In this document: positions 7,367 through 13,812 of the stretch, piece after piece
Layout of the letters: each line of letters begins with the position of its first letter
Position numbering within the stretch: position 1 is the first letter of the stretch
Assembly (NCBI GenBank): GCA_003553795.1
Contig: PWFH01000231.1
Location: 1-37,653, forward strand
Reading direction: 5' to 3'
DNA: 37,653 nucleotides
From: Egibacter sp.
GTDB taxonomy: Bacteria; Actinomycetota; Nitriliruptoria; Euzebyales; Egibacteraceae
The notes under the pieces: generated by a model
The model's input: only the letters and a program-made list of their open reading frames with translations
Told to the model about the DNA's origin: nothing
Database searches by the model: none
Translations under genes and position numbers: made by a program

Positions 7367-7966
7367 TCAGCCGGTCGGCGCCGGGGTGGTCGGCATGAAC
7401 GGTGGCCGCGCCGCCTCGAACGCCTGGATGTCGTCGTCGTGCTCGAGGGTGAGGCCGATGGGGTCGAGGCCGTGGACGAGCATGTGCTTGGTGTGACCGT
7501 CGATGTCGAAGCGCGCGAGCACGCGTCCGGCGACGACGAGCTGCTCGGGCAGGTCGATGCGCACCGGCGCGGCGGGGTCCTCGAGGGCCATCGCCACGAG
7601 CTCCTCGCACGCGGAGGCCTCGAGCGGCACGGTGAGCAGGCCGATCTTCGCGCAGTTCGTCTTGAAGATGTCGGCGAAGCTCGGCGCGATGATCGCGTCG
7701 AAGCCGTACTGCTGCAGACCCCACGGGGCATGCTCACGACTCGAGCCGCAGCCGAAGTTCGGCCCGGTCACGAGGACGTTGCCGCCGGCGTAGCGCGCGT
7801 CGTTGAGGACGAAGTCGCGGTCCTCACGCCAGTCGTCGAAGAGGAACTCGCCGAACCCGGTGCGCTCGATGCGCTTGAGGTGCTGCTTGGGCATGATCTG
7901 GTCGGTGTCGATGTCGGCCTGCCAGAGCGGCACCATCGTGCCGCTCACGACCGTGACGGGGTCCAT
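7367..7966 (-). CDS. leuD: 3-isopropylmalate dehydratase small subunit
   Basis: A 199-residue swivel subunit of isopropylmalate isomerase, which with LeuC interconverts 2- and 3-isopropylmalate in leucine synthesis. Recognisable segments are DIDTDQIMPKQHLKRI near the N-terminus, GPNFGCGSSREHAPWGLQ in the middle and SFADIFKTNCAKIGLL. The length is normal for bacterial LeuD. Its ATG overlaps the leuC stop by one base (TGATG), so the subunits are translationally coupled. No leuB follows; the next gene downstream is an ABC ATPase 143 bp away. Confidence 0.97.
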   Translation of the reverse strand: MDPVTVVSGTMVPLWQADIDTDQIMPKQHLKRIERTGFGEFLFDDWREDRDFVLNDARYAGGNVLVTGPNFGCGSSREHAPWGLQQYGFDAIIAPSFADIFKTNCAKIGLLTVPLEASACEELVAMALEDPAAPVRIDLPEQLVVAGRVLARFDIDGHTKHMLVHGLDPIGLTLEHDDDIQAFEAARPPFMPTTPAPTG

Positions 7967-9396
7967 CAGCGGTTCACCTCCGCGGCGTCGGCCATGCGGG
8001 CTTCCTCTCGGATGTCGACGAAGTGGCCGTGGATGGCCGCCGCGGCCGCCATCACCGGCGAGACGAGGTGGCTGCGGCCGCCGCGGCCCTGCCGCCCCTC
8101 GAAGTTGCGGTTCGACGTCGAGGCGCAGCGCTCCCCCGGCAGGAGGATGTCGGGGTTCATCCCGAGGCACATCGAGCAGCCGGCCTCGCGCCACTCGAAC
8201 CCGGCGTCCTTGAAGACGACGTCGAGGCCCTCGGACTCGGCATGGAGCTTGACCATCGTCGAGCCGGGCACGACCATCGCGCGGATGCCGTCGGCGACCT
8301 TGCGGTCGCGGACGACCGCGGCAGCGGCCCGGAGGTCCTCGATGCGGGCGTTCGTGCACGAGCCGAGGAAGACGCGGTCGAGCGGCAGCTCGGTGATCGC
8401 CTCCCCGCCCTCGAGGCCCATGTAGGCCAGCGCCCGGCGCGACTGATCGGGGTCGGCGGTGTCCTCGGCAGCGGGCACCCGACCGGTGACCGGCACGCTC
8501 ATCGCCGGGGTCGTGCCCCAGGTCACCGTCGGCTCGAGGGTCGCGGCGTCGATGTGGTGGTGCTGGTCGAAGCGGGCGTCGGGGTCGCTGGGCAGCTGCC
8601 GCCAGGAGTCGAGCGCGGCCTCCCAGTCCTTGCCGACCGGGGCGTGCGGGCGCCCCTCGAGGTAGGCGAACGTCGTGTCGTCGGGGGCGATCATGCCGGC
8701 GCGGGCCCCGCCCTCGATCGACATGTTGCAGATCGTCATCCGGCCCTCCATCGACAGCGACCGGATCGTCGAGCCGCGGTACTCGTAGACCGAGCCGACG
8801 CCGCCCTCGACGCCGAGGTCGCCGATGATGCGGAGCATGACGTCCTTGGCCGTCGTGCCGAACGGCAGGTCGCCGTCGACTTCGATGGCGTAGGTCGCCG
8901 GCTTGGCCTGCTGGAGGGTCTGGGTGGCGAGGACGTGCTCGACCTCGGAGGTGCCGATGCCGAAGGCCAGCGCGCCGAACGCCCCGTGGGTCGAGGTGTG
9001 GCTGTCGCCGCAGACCACCGTCGTTCCCGGCTGGGTGACGCCGAGCTCGGGGCCGATCATGTGGACGATGCCCTGGCGGTCGGACTTCGTCGAGAAGAGC
9101 CGGATGCCGAACTGCTCGCAGTTGGCCTCGAGCGTGGCGATCTGCTTCGCCGAGAGCTCGTCGTCGATGGGCAGGCTGCGGTCGGTCGTCGGCACGTTGT
9201 GGTCGACGGTGGCGAGGGTGAGGTCGGGGCGGCGCACGGTGCGGCCGGCCAGGCGCAGGCCCTCGAAGGCCTGCGGGCTCGTGACCTCGTGGATGAGGTG
9301 GAGGTCGATGTAGAGCAGGTCGGGCTCCTCGGCGGGGGACCGCACGACGTGGCGGTCCCACACCTTCTCCATGAGCGTCCGGGGCGCGTCGGTCAT
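7966..9396 (-). CDS. leuC: 3-isopropylmalate dehydratase large subunit
   Basis: A 476-residue aconitase-superfamily protein carrying the 4Fe-4S cluster of isopropylmalate isomerase. The three cluster cysteines are visible in [10 protein letters not shown] (near 347) and CSMCLGMN (near 407 and 410). Other family marks are [26 protein letters not shown] and PGSTMVK. The ATG start is preceded by AGGAG about 11 nt upstream, a rather long spacing; a later ATG (MEKVWDRH, codon 9) is less likely. It is transcribed in the same direction as leuA, 138 bp downstream of it, with a strong hairpin in the gap. Confidence 0.97.
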
Positions 9397-9534: not shown

Positions 9535-11127
9535 TTACGGGGTCTCGGTGGTGGCCCGCACCCGCTGGAGGCGCACGGACCGGTTCAGCGCGGAGAGGAA
9601 CGCTCGCGCGCTGGCCTCCACCACGTCGGTCGACACGCCGCGCCCGGTGTAGCGCTGCCCGTCGACGTCGACCTGGACGGTCACGTCACCGAGGGCGTCG
9701 ATGCCCTTGGTGACCGCCGCGACGTTGAAGTTCACCAACGTCGCATCGCTGCCGATCGCGCGGCGGATCGCGCCGCACGCCGCATCGACCATCCCGTTGC
9801 CGTCGCCGCTCACCGACTCCTCCAGCACGACGTCGTCGGCGGTGCGACGCACGCGGACCGTGGCGGTGGGTTGCCCCACGGTGCCGCCGGAGACCTCGAG
9901 CCCCTCGAGCTCGTAGGCCTCCTCGCTCGTTGCCGAGATCTCGTCGGCGACGATCGCCTCGAGGTCGGCGTCGGTGAGCTCGACCTTCTTGTCGGCGAGG
10001 CCCTTGAAGCGCTCGAAGGCGCGCTGGGTCTCCTCTGCGGTCAGCTCGTAGCCCATGTCGGTGAGCTGTTGGCTGAACGCATGGCGCCCGGAGTGCTTGC
10101 CGAGGACGATCTGGCTGCCGACCATGCCGACGGCCTCGGCGTCCATGATCTCGTAGGTCAGGCGGTCCTGGAGCACCCCGTGCTGGTGGATGCCCGACTC
10201 GTGGGCGAAGGCGTTCTTGCCCACGACCGCCTTGTTGAACTGCACGGGATAGCCGGTGAGGGTGCTCACCAGCCGGCTCGTGCGCCCGATCTCGCGGGTG
10301 TTGACCCGCGTGGGTCGGGCCAGGAGGTCCGCTCGGGTCGCGAGCGCCATGACGACCTCCTCCATCGCGCAGTTGCCCGCGCGCTCCCCGATGCCGTTGA
10401 CGGCGACCTCGACCTGCGTCGCGCCGTTGCGCACCGCCTCGATGGAGTTCGCCACGGCGAGCCCGAGGTCGTTGTGGCAGTGCACGCTCACCGCGACCTC
10501 GGGACCGACGCGGCGCACGATGTCGCCGATCATCGCCCCGAAGTCGTGGGGGATGGCGTAGCCGACGGTGTCGGGGATGTTCACCGTCGTCGCGCCGGCC
10601 TCGACCGCGGCGTCGACGATCCGCTTGAGGAACTCGACGTCGGTGCGGGTGGCGTCCTGCGGGCTGAACTCGACGTCCGGGGTGAACTCGAGCGCCTGCT
10701 TGATGCCCTCGACCGCCTGGTTGACGATCGCGTCCTCGCTCGCGCCGTGGTGCAGCACGTGGCGGTGGATCTCGCTCGTGGAGAGGAAGACGTGGATGCG
10801 CGAGTGCGTCGCCGGCGCGAGCGACTCCGCCGCACGGGTGATGTCGGCGGGGTGGCAGCGCGCGAGCGCGGCGATCGTCGGCGGGGTCTCCGCCTCGTTC
10901 CACACCTGCGTGCCCACGGCCTCGGCGATGCCGTGCACCGCCGCGGTGTCCCCCGCGGAGGTGATGGGGAACCCGGCCTCGATGACGTCGACGCCGAGCC
11001 GGGCGAGCTGCTCGGCGATCTCGAGCTTCTCCTTGGCATCGAGGGAGATGCCGGGGGCCTGCTCGCCGTCGCGCAGCGTCGTGTCGAAGATGCGGACGGG
11101 CGCAGCGGCCGGGTCGGTGGCGGTCAT
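9535..11127 (-). CDS. leuA: 2-isopropylmalate synthase (type I)
   Basis: A 530-residue enzyme condensing 2-ketoisovalerate with acetyl-CoA, the committed step of leucine synthesis. The catalytic TIM barrel carries DTTLRDGEQAPG (15-26), the metal-binding HCHNDLGLA and the NGIGERAGN segment, followed by GKHSGRHAF. The C-terminal 130 residues form the LeuA regulatory domain where leucine inhibits. Sequence and length fit the type I (proteobacterial-like) enzyme, whereas many actinobacteria use the longer type II form. The ATG is preceded by a very strong GAGGAGGAG Shine-Dalgarno with a 6-nt gap. That same sequence is complementary to leucine codons in the upstream leader frame. A citramalate synthase reading is less likely given leuCD nearby. 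Confidence 0.93.
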   Translation of the reverse strand: MTATDPAAAPVRIFDTTLRDGEQAPGISLDAKEKLEIAEQLARLGVDVIEAGFPITSAGDTAAVHGIAEAVGTQVWNEAETPPTIAALARCHPADITRAAESLAPATHSRIHVFLSTSEIHRHVLHHGASEDAIVNQAVEGIKQALEFTPDVEFSPQDATRTDVEFLKRIVDAAVEAGATTVNIPDTVGYAIPHDFGAMIGDIVRRVGPEVAVSVHCHNDLGLAVANSIEAVRNGATQVEVAVNGIGERAGNCAMEEVVMALATRADLLARPTRVNTREIGRTSRLVSTLTGYPVQFNKAVVGKNAFAHESGIHQHGVLQDRLTYEIMDAEAVGMVGSQIVLGKHSGRHAFSQQLTDMGYELTAEETQRAFERFKGLADKKVELTDADLEAIVADEISATSEEAYELEGLEVSGGTVGQPTATVRVRRTADDVVLEESVSGDGNGMVDAACGAIRRAIGSDATLVNFNVAAVTKGIDALGDVTVQVDVDGQRYTGRGVSTDVVEASARAFLSALNRSVRLQRVRATTETP

Positions 11128-11133
11128 GACGAG

Positions 11134-11238
11134 CTCCTCCTCGATGCGTGCGGGGTCGCACCCTTGTGGCGATGTCCTCCGCGGGGGGCTCGGTGCGTCA
11201 GCGGCTGCCGCCCCGCGGCATCAAAGGATGAGGAGGAG
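11134..11238 (-). promoter_or_regulatory. leuA translational attenuator
   Basis: The leuA Shine-Dalgarno in the mRNA, GAGGAGGAG (11142 down to 11134), is a perfect 9-nt complement of CTCCTCCTC (11238 down to 11230), the consecutive leucine codons of the upstream leader frame. The paired segments enclose two hairpins: CCGCGGGG/CCCCGCGG (11211-11218 with 11179-11186) and a 5-bp GTGCG/CGCAC stem (11157-11161 with 11148-11152). A ribosome stalled on the leucine codons would hide one arm and free the leuA start. Rapid translation would let the arm close over it. A conserved pseudoknot called the LEU element is known upstream of leuA in many actinobacteria; this may be a relative. The mechanism is inference. 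Confidence 0.7.
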
Positions 11239-11328
11239 AAGGCCCACGATGGGGCCGAGCAGGCGCACGTCGATGCCCGCGGCGCGGGTCGCGCGCCGGG
11301 CGCTCTCGGAGGTCGTGTGCGGGCTCAC
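11221..11328 (-). CDS. Leucine leader peptide upstream of leuA
   Basis: A 35-codon frame ending 93 bp before leuA. Its last 15 residues read VRLLGPIVGLLLLIL, with seven leucines, two isoleucines and two valines: the make-up of a branched-chain attenuator peptide. Two of the seven leucine codons are CTT, a poor choice in so GC-rich a genome. The GTG at 11328 lies 8 nt after a good -10 hexamer, so the mRNA would begin at or next to the start codon and need no ribosome binding site. A shorter reading from the GTG at 11268 gives only the 15-residue tail. It probably acts in cis, sensing charged tRNA-Leu; the peptide itself need not function. Confidence 0.72.
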   Translation of the reverse strand: MSPHTTSESARRATRAAGIDVRLLGPIVGLLLLIL

Positions 11329-11336
11329 GAGCCCAA

Positions 11337-11365
11337 GTTGTACGCGCCGCGGCGCGCGCCGTCAA
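11337..11365 (-). promoter_or_regulatory. leuA leader promoter
   Basis: Minus-strand TTGACG (11360-11365) and TACAAC (11337-11342) are separated by exactly 17 bp, close to the housekeeping sigma consensus. Transcription should start 7-9 nt downstream, essentially at the GTG of the leader frame (11328). The region upstream is shared with the divergent ACT-domain gene. Confidence 0.7.
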
Positions 11366-11470: not shown

Positions 11471-12013
11471 ATGGAGATCATGCTGCGGTGCGAGCTCGAC
11501 GACACCCCCGGCTCCCTCGCCCTGCTCGCAGGCACGATCAGCGAGGCCGGGGGGGACATCCAGTCGGTCGACGTCGTCGAGACCGAGGAGGGGCGCGTGC
11601 TCGACGACCTCCTCGTCGTCATCGACGGCGAGCGCGGCGCCGCCCTGCTGCACGCCCTCGAGGCGCTGCCCGAGGTCACGCTCGTCCACGCCGGGCCGTC
11701 CCGCGGGCACCCCGGCGATGCGGTCACCCGGCTGGCGGTCGGCCTCGAGGCGCTGCTCGACGGCCAGGCTCCCACCGAGCGGGCGCTGCCGACGCTCATC
11801 GGCGGCATGCTCCGCGCCTCCGCCGCCGAGCTCGTCGCGCGGGGCGAGGCACCACGACCCTCGAGCAAGGTCCTCGTCCTCGACGTCGACGCCCGCGTGC
11901 TCGTGGTGCGGCGCGACTACCGCTTCACCGACACCGAGCGGGAGCGTGCCGCCGCCCTGCTGCGCCTCGCGTTGCTCGCCGAGGGCGCCCGCGATCACTC
12001 CGCGACGGGGTAG
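11471..12013 (+). CDS. ACT-domain protein, unknown C-terminal half
   Basis: A 180-residue protein. Residues 1-75 look like an ACT domain (MLRCELDDTPGSLALLAGTI, then GGDIQSVDVVE), a small-ligand sensor usually binding amino acids. The remaining 100 residues hold a basic and hydrophobic segment (SSKVLVLDVDARVLVVRRDY) that I cannot assign. No DNA-binding motif, catalytic domain or membrane span is visible. It is transcribed divergently from the leuA leader, with the two starts 142 bp apart, and its last 19 bp overlap the 3' end of the convergent phoU gene. A role in sensing branched-chain amino acids is suggested only by position. Confidence 0.75.
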   Translation: MEIMLRCELDDTPGSLALLAGTISEAGGDIQSVDVVETEEGRVLDDLLVVIDGERGAALLHALEALPEVTLVHAGPSRGHPGDAVTRLAVGLEALLDGQAPTERALPTLIGGMLRASAAELVARGEAPRPSSKVLVLDVDARVLVVRRDYRFTDTERERAAALLRLALLAEGARDHSATG

Positions 12014-12654
12014 TTCATCTCGTCGAGCGGCATGACGACCGCCGAGCCGATGTTGATGACGTTCGCGGCGACGCGGGAGATCTGGCGGTAGGTCAGCACC
12101 GTGGCGGCCGGCGAGGGGATGTCCTCCTCCTCGCGCAGCAGCGCGTCGATGCGCACCCGGCAGCGCTCCTTGAGTTGCTGCGCCTCGGTGATGACCCGGT
12201 GCGCGCGGTCGACGTCGTCGGCGCGGAAGGCCTCGGCGACCTCGGCGATGAGCGGGGAGAGCGCGCGGCTGATCTCGGCGAGGTCCTCGCGCACCGGACC
12301 CGAGGCCACCGGCCCGACCGACGTCGCGATGCTGAAGAGCTGCTTGGAGAGGTCGCCGATGCGCTCGGCGTCCTTGGCCACGCTCATGTAGCGCAGGCAC
12401 GACGGCAGGTCGGCTGCGCGGCCGTGGACGCTCGCGTGGACGAGCACCCGGCGGCGGATGTCGCGCTCGGCGTCGTCGGTGCGGTCCTCGGTGTGGCGCA
12501 GGTCCTCGGCGACCATCTCCGGGTCGGTGCCGCCCACGCGGGCGCCGGTGGCGAGATCGAAGACGTGCCGCGCGTCGTGGAGCATCGCGACGAAGCGCTC
12601 CTCGACGGCGAGCAGACCGCTGCTGCCGTCACCACCACGGAAGAGCTTGAGCAC
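11995..12654 (-). CDS. PhoU-domain protein
   Basis: A 219-residue, almost wholly helical cytoplasmic protein of the PhoU family. PhoU proteins carry metal-cluster-binding motifs and tune phosphate transport and signalling. The segment RYMSVAKDAERIGDLSKQLF is the E/D-rich signature of one three-helix bundle, and LTYRQISRVAANVINIGSAV resembles the second. The GTG start has AGGAGG 4 nt upstream. It lies 9 bp downstream of the Na/Pi cotransporter gene, so the two are co-transcribed. In many bacteria the PhoU domain is fused to such transporters; here it is a separate protein, probably the transporter's regulatory subunit. Confidence 0.85.
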   Translation of the reverse strand: MLKLFRGGDGSSGLLAVEERFVAMLHDARHVFDLATGARVGGTDPEMVAEDLRHTEDRTDDAERDIRRRVLVHASVHGRAADLPSCLRYMSVAKDAERIGDLSKQLFSIATSVGPVASGPVREDLAEISRALSPLIAEVAEAFRADDVDRAHRVITEAQQLKERCRVRIDALLREEEDIPSPAATVLTYRQISRVAANVINIGSAVVMPLDEMNYPVAE

Positions 12655-12663
12655 GGGGCCTCC

Positions 12664-13812
12664 TCACCTCAACAGGATGATGCCCAACAGCGGAGCGACG
12701 TAGAAGAGGACGATGACGTAGACGATGACCTGGATGCGCCGCCGCACCGCGATGTCGGCGATGCGCAGCGCGAGCCGCACGGGGACGTCGCGCACCGCGG
12801 GTACGGCGTAGAGGGCCACGATACCGGCGATGTTGAAGAGCAGGTGGACGAGGGCGATCTGGAGGCCGGCGACGAGGTCGACGGCGAGCGCGGCGAGCAG
12901 GGCGGTGATCGTCGTGCCGAGGTTCGCCCCGAGGGTGACGGGATAGGCGCTGCGCAGCGAGAGCACCCCCGCGGCGAGCATCGGGATGAGCAGCGACGTC
13001 GTGATGCTCGAGGACTGCACCGCGACGGTGAGCAGCACCCCGGCGAGGATGCCGACGACGCCGACGCGGCCGAGGACGTCGTTGAGGACGCGCTCGGCGG
13101 GCCCGGCCATGACCGCGCGCATCGTGCGGGTGATCGCGAAGAGCGTCGCGAAGATCGCGCCGAGGCCGAGGACGATGAGGACGACGCCGGAGGCGATCCC
13201 GTCGCCGGCGACCGACTCGACCACCGAGACCACCGCGCCGCTCGCCGTGTCGACGAGCGCCTTGATGGGGCTGCGCAGCTCGCCGGTCGCGGCGTCGGAC
13301 AGCGGCCCCGACAGCCACACCGCCGCGCGGGCGAGGACACCCGTGGCGAGCTCGATCGGCAGCAGCACGACGACCGCGAGGAGGTTGAAGACGTCGTGCA
13401 CCGTCGCGCCGGCGAAGGCCCGGCGGAACTCCTCGGGCCGGCGGATGCTGCCGAGCGAGGCGAGGGTGTTCGTGATCGTCGTGCCCACGTTGGCGCCCAT
13501 GATCACGGGCACGGCCTGGTCCAGCGGGATGACCCCGGCGCCGACGAGGCCCACGACCGTGGCGGTCGTCACTGACGACGACTGCGCGAGGACCGTGGCG
13601 AGGATGCCGACGCAGAGGCCGACGATGGGGTTGTCGAGCCCGCGGAACAGCGCGTCGGTGAAGTCCTCGCCGAGCGCGGCGATGCCGTCGCCGAGGAGGT
13701 CGACGGCGAGGAGGAAGACCGACAGCAGCACGAGCAGCACGACGATGCGCTGCCAGCGCTCGGCCCGCGACAGCCCGCGGGCCGGCCTGCGTCCCTCGCT
13801 CTCGGCGCTCAT
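12664..13812 (-). CDS. Na+/phosphate cotransporter family protein (NptA-like)
   Basis: A 382-residue inner-membrane protein with two inverted Na/Pi-cotransporter repeats, each marked by a QSSS motif: LAQSSSVTTATVVGLVGAG in the first half and VQSSSITTSLLIPMLAAG in the second. Each is followed by a GANVGTTIT or GANLGTTIT loop. About nine hydrophobic spans are visible. The family couples sodium to phosphate uptake. The ATG is preceded by AAGGGAGG with a very short gap. The PhoU partner gene follows directly. The promoter upstream carries a large inverted repeat, suggesting control by a regulator, possibly phosphate-responsive. Confidence 0.88.
   Translation of the reverse strand: MSAESEGRRPARGLSRAERWQRIVVLLVLLSVFLLAVDLLGDGIAALGEDFTDALFRGLDNPIVGLCVGILATVLAQSSSVTTATVVGLVGAGVIPLDQAVPVIMGANVGTTITNTLASLGSIRRPEEFRRAFAGATVHDVFNLLAVVVLLPIELATGVLARAAVWLSGPLSDAATGELRSPIKALVDTASGAVVSVVESVAGDGIASGVVLIVLGLGAIFATLFAITRTMRAVMAGPAERVLNDVLGRVGVVGILAGVLLTVAVQSSSITTSLLIPMLAAGVLSLRSAYPVTLGANLGTTITALLAALAVDLVAGLQIALVHLLFNIAGIVALYAVPAVRDVPVRLALRIADIAVRRRIQVIVYVIVLFYVAPLLGIILLR

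Follow-up and report, generated by a model that had tools for sequence, protein, structure and literature searches.

Genes and features of the locus

The window, i.e. the whole analysed stretch of 37,653 nucleotides from Egibacter sp. (contig PWFH01000231.1), carries on its minus strand a short leucine-rich leader frame, leuL, at a distance of 93 nt upstream of leuA; the gene order downstream of leuL is leuA, leuC and a leuD-type gene.

11360..11365, minus strand: -35 element TTGACG, zero-mismatch pattern match
11337..11342, minus strand: -10 element TACAAC, 17 nt spacer to the -35 element, ending 8 nt before the GTG
11221..11328, minus strand: leuL, predicted leaderless 35-codon leader ORF from GTG to TGA, with its frame and leucine tail conserved among relatives
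11224..11241, minus strand: putative leuL sensor codons 30-35, CTT CTC CTC CTC ATC CTT
9535..11127, minus strand: leuA, 2-isopropylmalate synthase (NF002086, TIGR00973)
7966..9396, minus strand: leuC, 3-isopropylmalate dehydratase large subunit (TIGR00170)
7367..7966, minus strand: leuD (by position), 3-isopropylmalate dehydratase small subunit (Aconitase_C domain)

The leuL frame starts with the GTG at 11328-11326 (minus strand) and its product is MSPHTTSESARRATRAAGIDVRLLGPIVGLLLLIL, with VRLLGPIVGLLLLIL as the C-terminal end. Regarding the leucine content, leuL alone among the 754 stop codons in all frames of the window is preceded by at least five leucine codons within the last six codons. 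The zero-mismatch pattern TTGACG-17-TACAAC has only one match within the window; with up to two mismatches allowed, four matches were found there versus 1.4 expected. The leuL promoter was not reported by the sigma-70 promoter scan because TACAAC lacks the final T. The original prediction had described this promoter, with its -10 element ending 8 nt before the GTG, and a 35-codon frame with a leucine-rich C-terminal third (11328-11221); each of these details was correct, the minus strand having been left unnamed. It had also called the CTT codons of the run unusual, in agreement with the codon usage counted in seven neighbouring genes of the window, where CTT accounts for 1 of 255 leucine codons.

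An inverted repeat (GGGCTC-GT-GAGCCC, window 11319-11332) is centred on the leuL start codon; it is not kept in relatives and was dropped as a candidate conserved feature. The product of the divergent gene beside the leuL promoter (window 11471-12013, plus strand) has an ACT domain (PF01842, slightly above the cut-off) and is possibly an amino-acid-binding regulator; at least seven family members keep this gene adjacent to leuL-leuA. A Na/Pi symporter gene (window 12664-13812) and then a PhoU-like gene (11995-12654), both on the minus strand, are probably a phosphate uptake pair.

Conservation of promoter, start and reading frame

The leader is supported most strongly by its conservation in 38 related sequences. 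A set of 80 related genomes was searched for genes similar to leuA, and the orthologues with upstream DNA were read. A leucine-rich frame followed by the motif stop-[CT]GCCGC was found in 39 same-class sequences (window included), which were chosen by this motif, so that its presence in them is no test in itself. Among the class-level leuA orthologues read, L118 alone is without the motif, and another gene lies directly ahead of its leuA.

The promoter and start were compared within the order in the 19 sequences with enough DNA (window included). TTGAC and TA-N4 elements are 17-18 nt apart in all 19, an ATG or GTG start follows the -10 element after 7-10 nt in all 19, and a Shine-Dalgarno-like 4-mer is absent between -20 and -4 in 18 of them. 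The relative entropy maxima within the order are the -35 element, the -10 element and the start codon. In the class-level family the start spacing is similar and the promoter is weaker. Two later in-frame GTG codons (V21 and V29) were considered as the true leuL start and rejected, as several relatives have other codons there and the promoter-proximal start is kept.

The leader frame measures 27-37 codons in the order; in the class it reaches 41. It is unbroken at ten different lengths (order and class together). All 19 order-level frames end in a leucine-rich tail. Leucine is enriched in the leader frame alone, at 5.8 per 10 codons, compared with 0.2 and 1.2 for the remaining two frames. The N-terminal part of the peptide is poorly conserved; the leucine tail and the RNA boxes alone are kept. 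Third codon positions of the leucine tail, inspected for an excess of variation as a sign of coding, were not clearly more variable than the other positions.

The -10 element thus occupies the place of a Shine-Dalgarno sequence, and the expected transcription start falls on an ATG or GTG, the codons required for leaderless starts (PMC4633059). Taken together, the spacing between promoter and start, the missing Shine-Dalgarno and the frame-bound leucine in relatives make it very likely, at the level of sequence comparison, that leuL has a leaderless start, with the predicted transcription start at or beside the GTG.

RNA fold of the leader

The predicted fold of the leader comprises a base stem, a hairpin (P2) between its two strands, and a probable pseudoknot.

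11230..11238, minus strand: base stem 5' strand, CUCCUCCUC, leuL codons 31-33, in the MFE and centroid structures of the leader
11134..11142, minus strand: base stem 3' strand, GAGGAGGAG, the leuA Shine-Dalgarno, in the MFE and centroid structures and covered by the swap test
11211..11218, minus strand: hairpin P2 5' arm, CCGCGGGG
11179..11186, minus strand: hairpin P2 3' arm, CCCCGCGG
11192..11197, minus strand: CGCACC, P2 loop strand of the probable pseudoknot, read from the window sequence, with 6-11 bp matches in many relatives
11157..11162, minus strand: GGUGCG, probable pseudoknot partner of CGCACC, downstream of P2

The two strands of the base stem are exactly complementary and form a 9-bp stem in the MFE structure of the window leader and in its centroid as well. 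In the swap test, the pairing of each leucine run with its own leuA Shine-Dalgarno exceeded that with permuted partners (p values of 0.02 for the order and 0.006 for the class), a support that is modest because permutation leaves relatedness in place; it was also stronger than the pairing achieved by the 30 nt of leader ahead of the run. When the leucine run was deleted in silico, the predicted fold placed the leuA Shine-Dalgarno mostly in a loop.

Regarding P2, 97.3% of the cells are paired across relatives, and both-side changes occur at two pairs (18 cells), a number reached in none of 500 shuffles. The loop of P2 reads GCACC, GCACUC or GCAUCCAC in relatives, with GGGUGC or GUGGAUGC as the downstream match, which extends to 9 bp in L011 and 11 bp in L019. 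A pseudoknot between the P2 loop and the downstream strand is graded as probable on these sequences, because its swap test was marginal (p 0.04 in the order, 0.15 in the class). A competing hairpin in the window pairs GUGCG (within 11157-11162) with CGCAC at 11152-11148. The folding energy of the whole leader is not unusual for its composition and GC content (z -1.39), and no Rfam family reached the gathering score for the window.

The last leader codon is CTT in 36 of 38 leaders; of the other 76 leucine codons in the runs of the order, 13 are CTT. The final CTT sits in a conserved box, CUU-[stop]-YGCCGC, a feature missed in the original prediction, which had noted the rarity of the codon. Streptomyces-type elements have CUU-AGC-UGCCGC at the equivalent place with the reading frame continuing. 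The retention of CTT thus seems not to depend on the stop codon and to serve either the RNA or slow decoding.

Identity of the element and comparison with known systems

The LEU element was described upstream of actinobacterial leuA as a leader ORF with a leucine run, a base stem with the leuA Shine-Dalgarno, and a pseudoknot or alternative hairpin (Seliverstov et al. 2005, PMC1262725). A further criterion for the element is phylogenetic co-occurrence with ML1624 orthologues. The leader ORF with its leucine run and the base stem recur in the leuL-leuA leader, where the base stem encloses a probable pseudoknot or an alternative hairpin, and the lack of an obvious intrinsic terminator is shared as well. 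A covariance model (R1), built solely from the class of the window with Streptomyces elements left out, matches the elements before PRK03739-type leuA of Streptomyces-like genomes (about 30 bits, E 6e-5 to 1e-4 in 125 kb) as well as elements in other genomes of the phylum. The leuL-leuA leader is thus very probably a LEU element.

The S. lividans leader LeuL1, MRFGLLLLSCRGEGL, was found to be leaderless by RNA-seq (PMC8079986). A peptide identical to it occurs in L138, L180 and L182, and R1 matches all three. Such Streptomyces-like peptides in the phylum place the genome of the window among the actinobacteria. LeuL1 resembles leuL as a leaderless leucine leader peptide before leuA without a typical terminator, and differs in that it is shorter and its ORF reaches into P2. 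From the R1 matches and the LeuL1 identity it follows that the element and the leaderless start are both already known. The original proposal of a leaderless leucine-sensing leader peptide is thus well supported by the comparison of relatives, in which start spacing, frame and leucine run, named there as the features to check, are kept in all 19 order-level sequences; missed were the earlier descriptions in other actinobacteria (PMC1262725, PMC8079986) and the second role of the leucine run as the 5' strand of an element able to mask the leuA Shine-Dalgarno. The advantage suggested there, that a leaderless start may free the sensor from Shine-Dalgarno competition, is a possibility.

Differences from the Streptomyces-type elements are the stop right behind the leucine run, the longer peptide and the other leuA subfamily. 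Here translation would end directly after the last leucine codon (CTT-TGA-YGCCGC), leaving P2 untranslated, whereas the Streptomyces-type frame continues through the 5' arm (CTT AGC TGC CGC GGC GAG GGC CTG TAG). The peptides have 27-41 codons versus 15 in Streptomyces-type elements, and the downstream leuA is of the PRK00915 type versus the PRK03739 type behind the Streptomyces-type elements read. Same-class genomes with a PRK03739-type leuA (L143, L174, L177) have the read-through form of the element. LEU-type elements also occur before leuC in some genomes (L161, L176 and L181 around 1501), with the stop-proximal form in G036 and G028.

Two further systems are comparable. The ilvBNC attenuator of Corynebacterium glutamicum also has a leaderless leader peptide for branched-chain amino acids, and in the account given of it in PMC11857589 (citing Morbach et al. 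2000) it acts, unlike leuL, via an intrinsic terminator and an antiterminator. Mycobacterial polycysteine uORFs, as summarized in PMC4633059 and in PMC13236596 (citing Canestrari et al. 2020), are likewise leaderless amino-acid-sensing ORFs before a biosynthetic operon. They differ in the amino acid, cysteine instead of leucine. To our knowledge, no stem between codon run and Shine-Dalgarno has been described for them.

Proposed mechanism and alternatives

The LEU element of the leuACD operon probably consists of a leaderless leader ORF and a cis-acting RNA fold, with translational control by the leucine run. If the transcript begins at or next to the leuL GTG, ribosomes would load at its 5' end to translate leuL. 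The leucine run would then be used twice, as sensor codons and as an anti-Shine-Dalgarno RNA strand. With charged Leu-tRNA, the ribosome would clear the run and be released at the UGA right behind it; the freed run would pair with the leuA Shine-Dalgarno over 9 bp, enclosing P2 together with the pseudoknot or the alternative hairpin. Masked in this way, the Shine-Dalgarno would no longer allow initiation of leuA. With uncharged Leu-tRNA, the ribosome would stall at codons 30-35 and cover the run, the Shine-Dalgarno would stay free, and leuA, and leuCD behind it, would be made. This exchange between a stalled ribosome that exposes the leuA Shine-Dalgarno and a run that otherwise masks it is favoured with some reserve. 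What was observed, with its conservation, is the frame, the start spacing, the leucine tail, P2 and the complementarity of run and Shine-Dalgarno; from these we infer the transcription start, the stalling, the direction of control and the effect on leuCD, the most likely outcome being that a shortage of charged leucine tRNA turns leucine synthesis on.

Between leuL and leuA the minus strand showed no U-run terminator, which makes the translational model the simplest. The same fold might in addition lead to translation-coupled Rho termination, in which the block of leuA translation would be followed by Rho shortening the untranslated mRNA. This is a possibility of lesser weight, consistent with Shine-Dalgarno masking without an intrinsic terminator and with the suggestion of Rho for other actinobacterial leaders (PMC1262725); Rho termination would be an added output of translational masking, and both can hold together.

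An unlikely alternative is that a protein ligand of the RNA element, not the ribosome, controls leuA. The conserved hairpin P2 with its probable pseudoknot would suit such a ligand, and the authors of 2005 (PMC1262725) preferred and proposed it because codon mutations in Streptomyces coelicolor did not fit classical attenuation, control there being reportedly insensitive to codon changes. Those mutations are hard to interpret unless both effects are controlled, because codon changes alter the stem too. Start spacing, frame and in-frame leucine tail are kept in the 19 order-level sequences despite varying peptide sequence and length, which would be needless for a protein site alone.

Classical transcription attenuation, in which the leader ORF chooses between an intrinsic terminator and an antiterminator, is less probable still. 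It has a precedent in related leuA leaders of other lineages (L032, L035, L122, L145-L149), where a leucine leader ORF before leuA is followed by a hairpin and a T run, i.e. an intrinsic-terminator version; against it, besides the absence of a U-run terminator between leuL and leuA, none was visible in the class-level leaders listed. That the leuL product is a functional small membrane protein, as the hydrophobic C-terminal third might suggest, is very improbable given the poorly conserved N-terminal part and a codon choice constrained at the RNA level.

Returning to translational control by the leucine run, the more specific proposal is that in this actinobacterial class the LEU element acts as a translational attenuator, with a single sequence of 9-12 nt as both starvation sensor (leucine codons) and anti-Shine-Dalgarno mask, in a stop-proximal form that the ribosome would leave directly before the hairpin; this is about as likely as not. 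The form found in the class also offers a reason for the retention of rare CTT codons in a genome of about 74% GC. The mechanism of the LEU element has been open since 2005, and the class studied here presents a clean form of it: the conserved and very probably leaderless start would fix where translation begins, the stop lies right after the sensor codons, and there is no confusing intrinsic terminator. Recoding would here allow the effect of codon identity to be told apart from that of base pairing, since a change of CTC to CTG retains leucine and breaks the stem. If the proposal is true, the question of mechanism raised in 2005 would be decided for the ribosome over a protein ligand.
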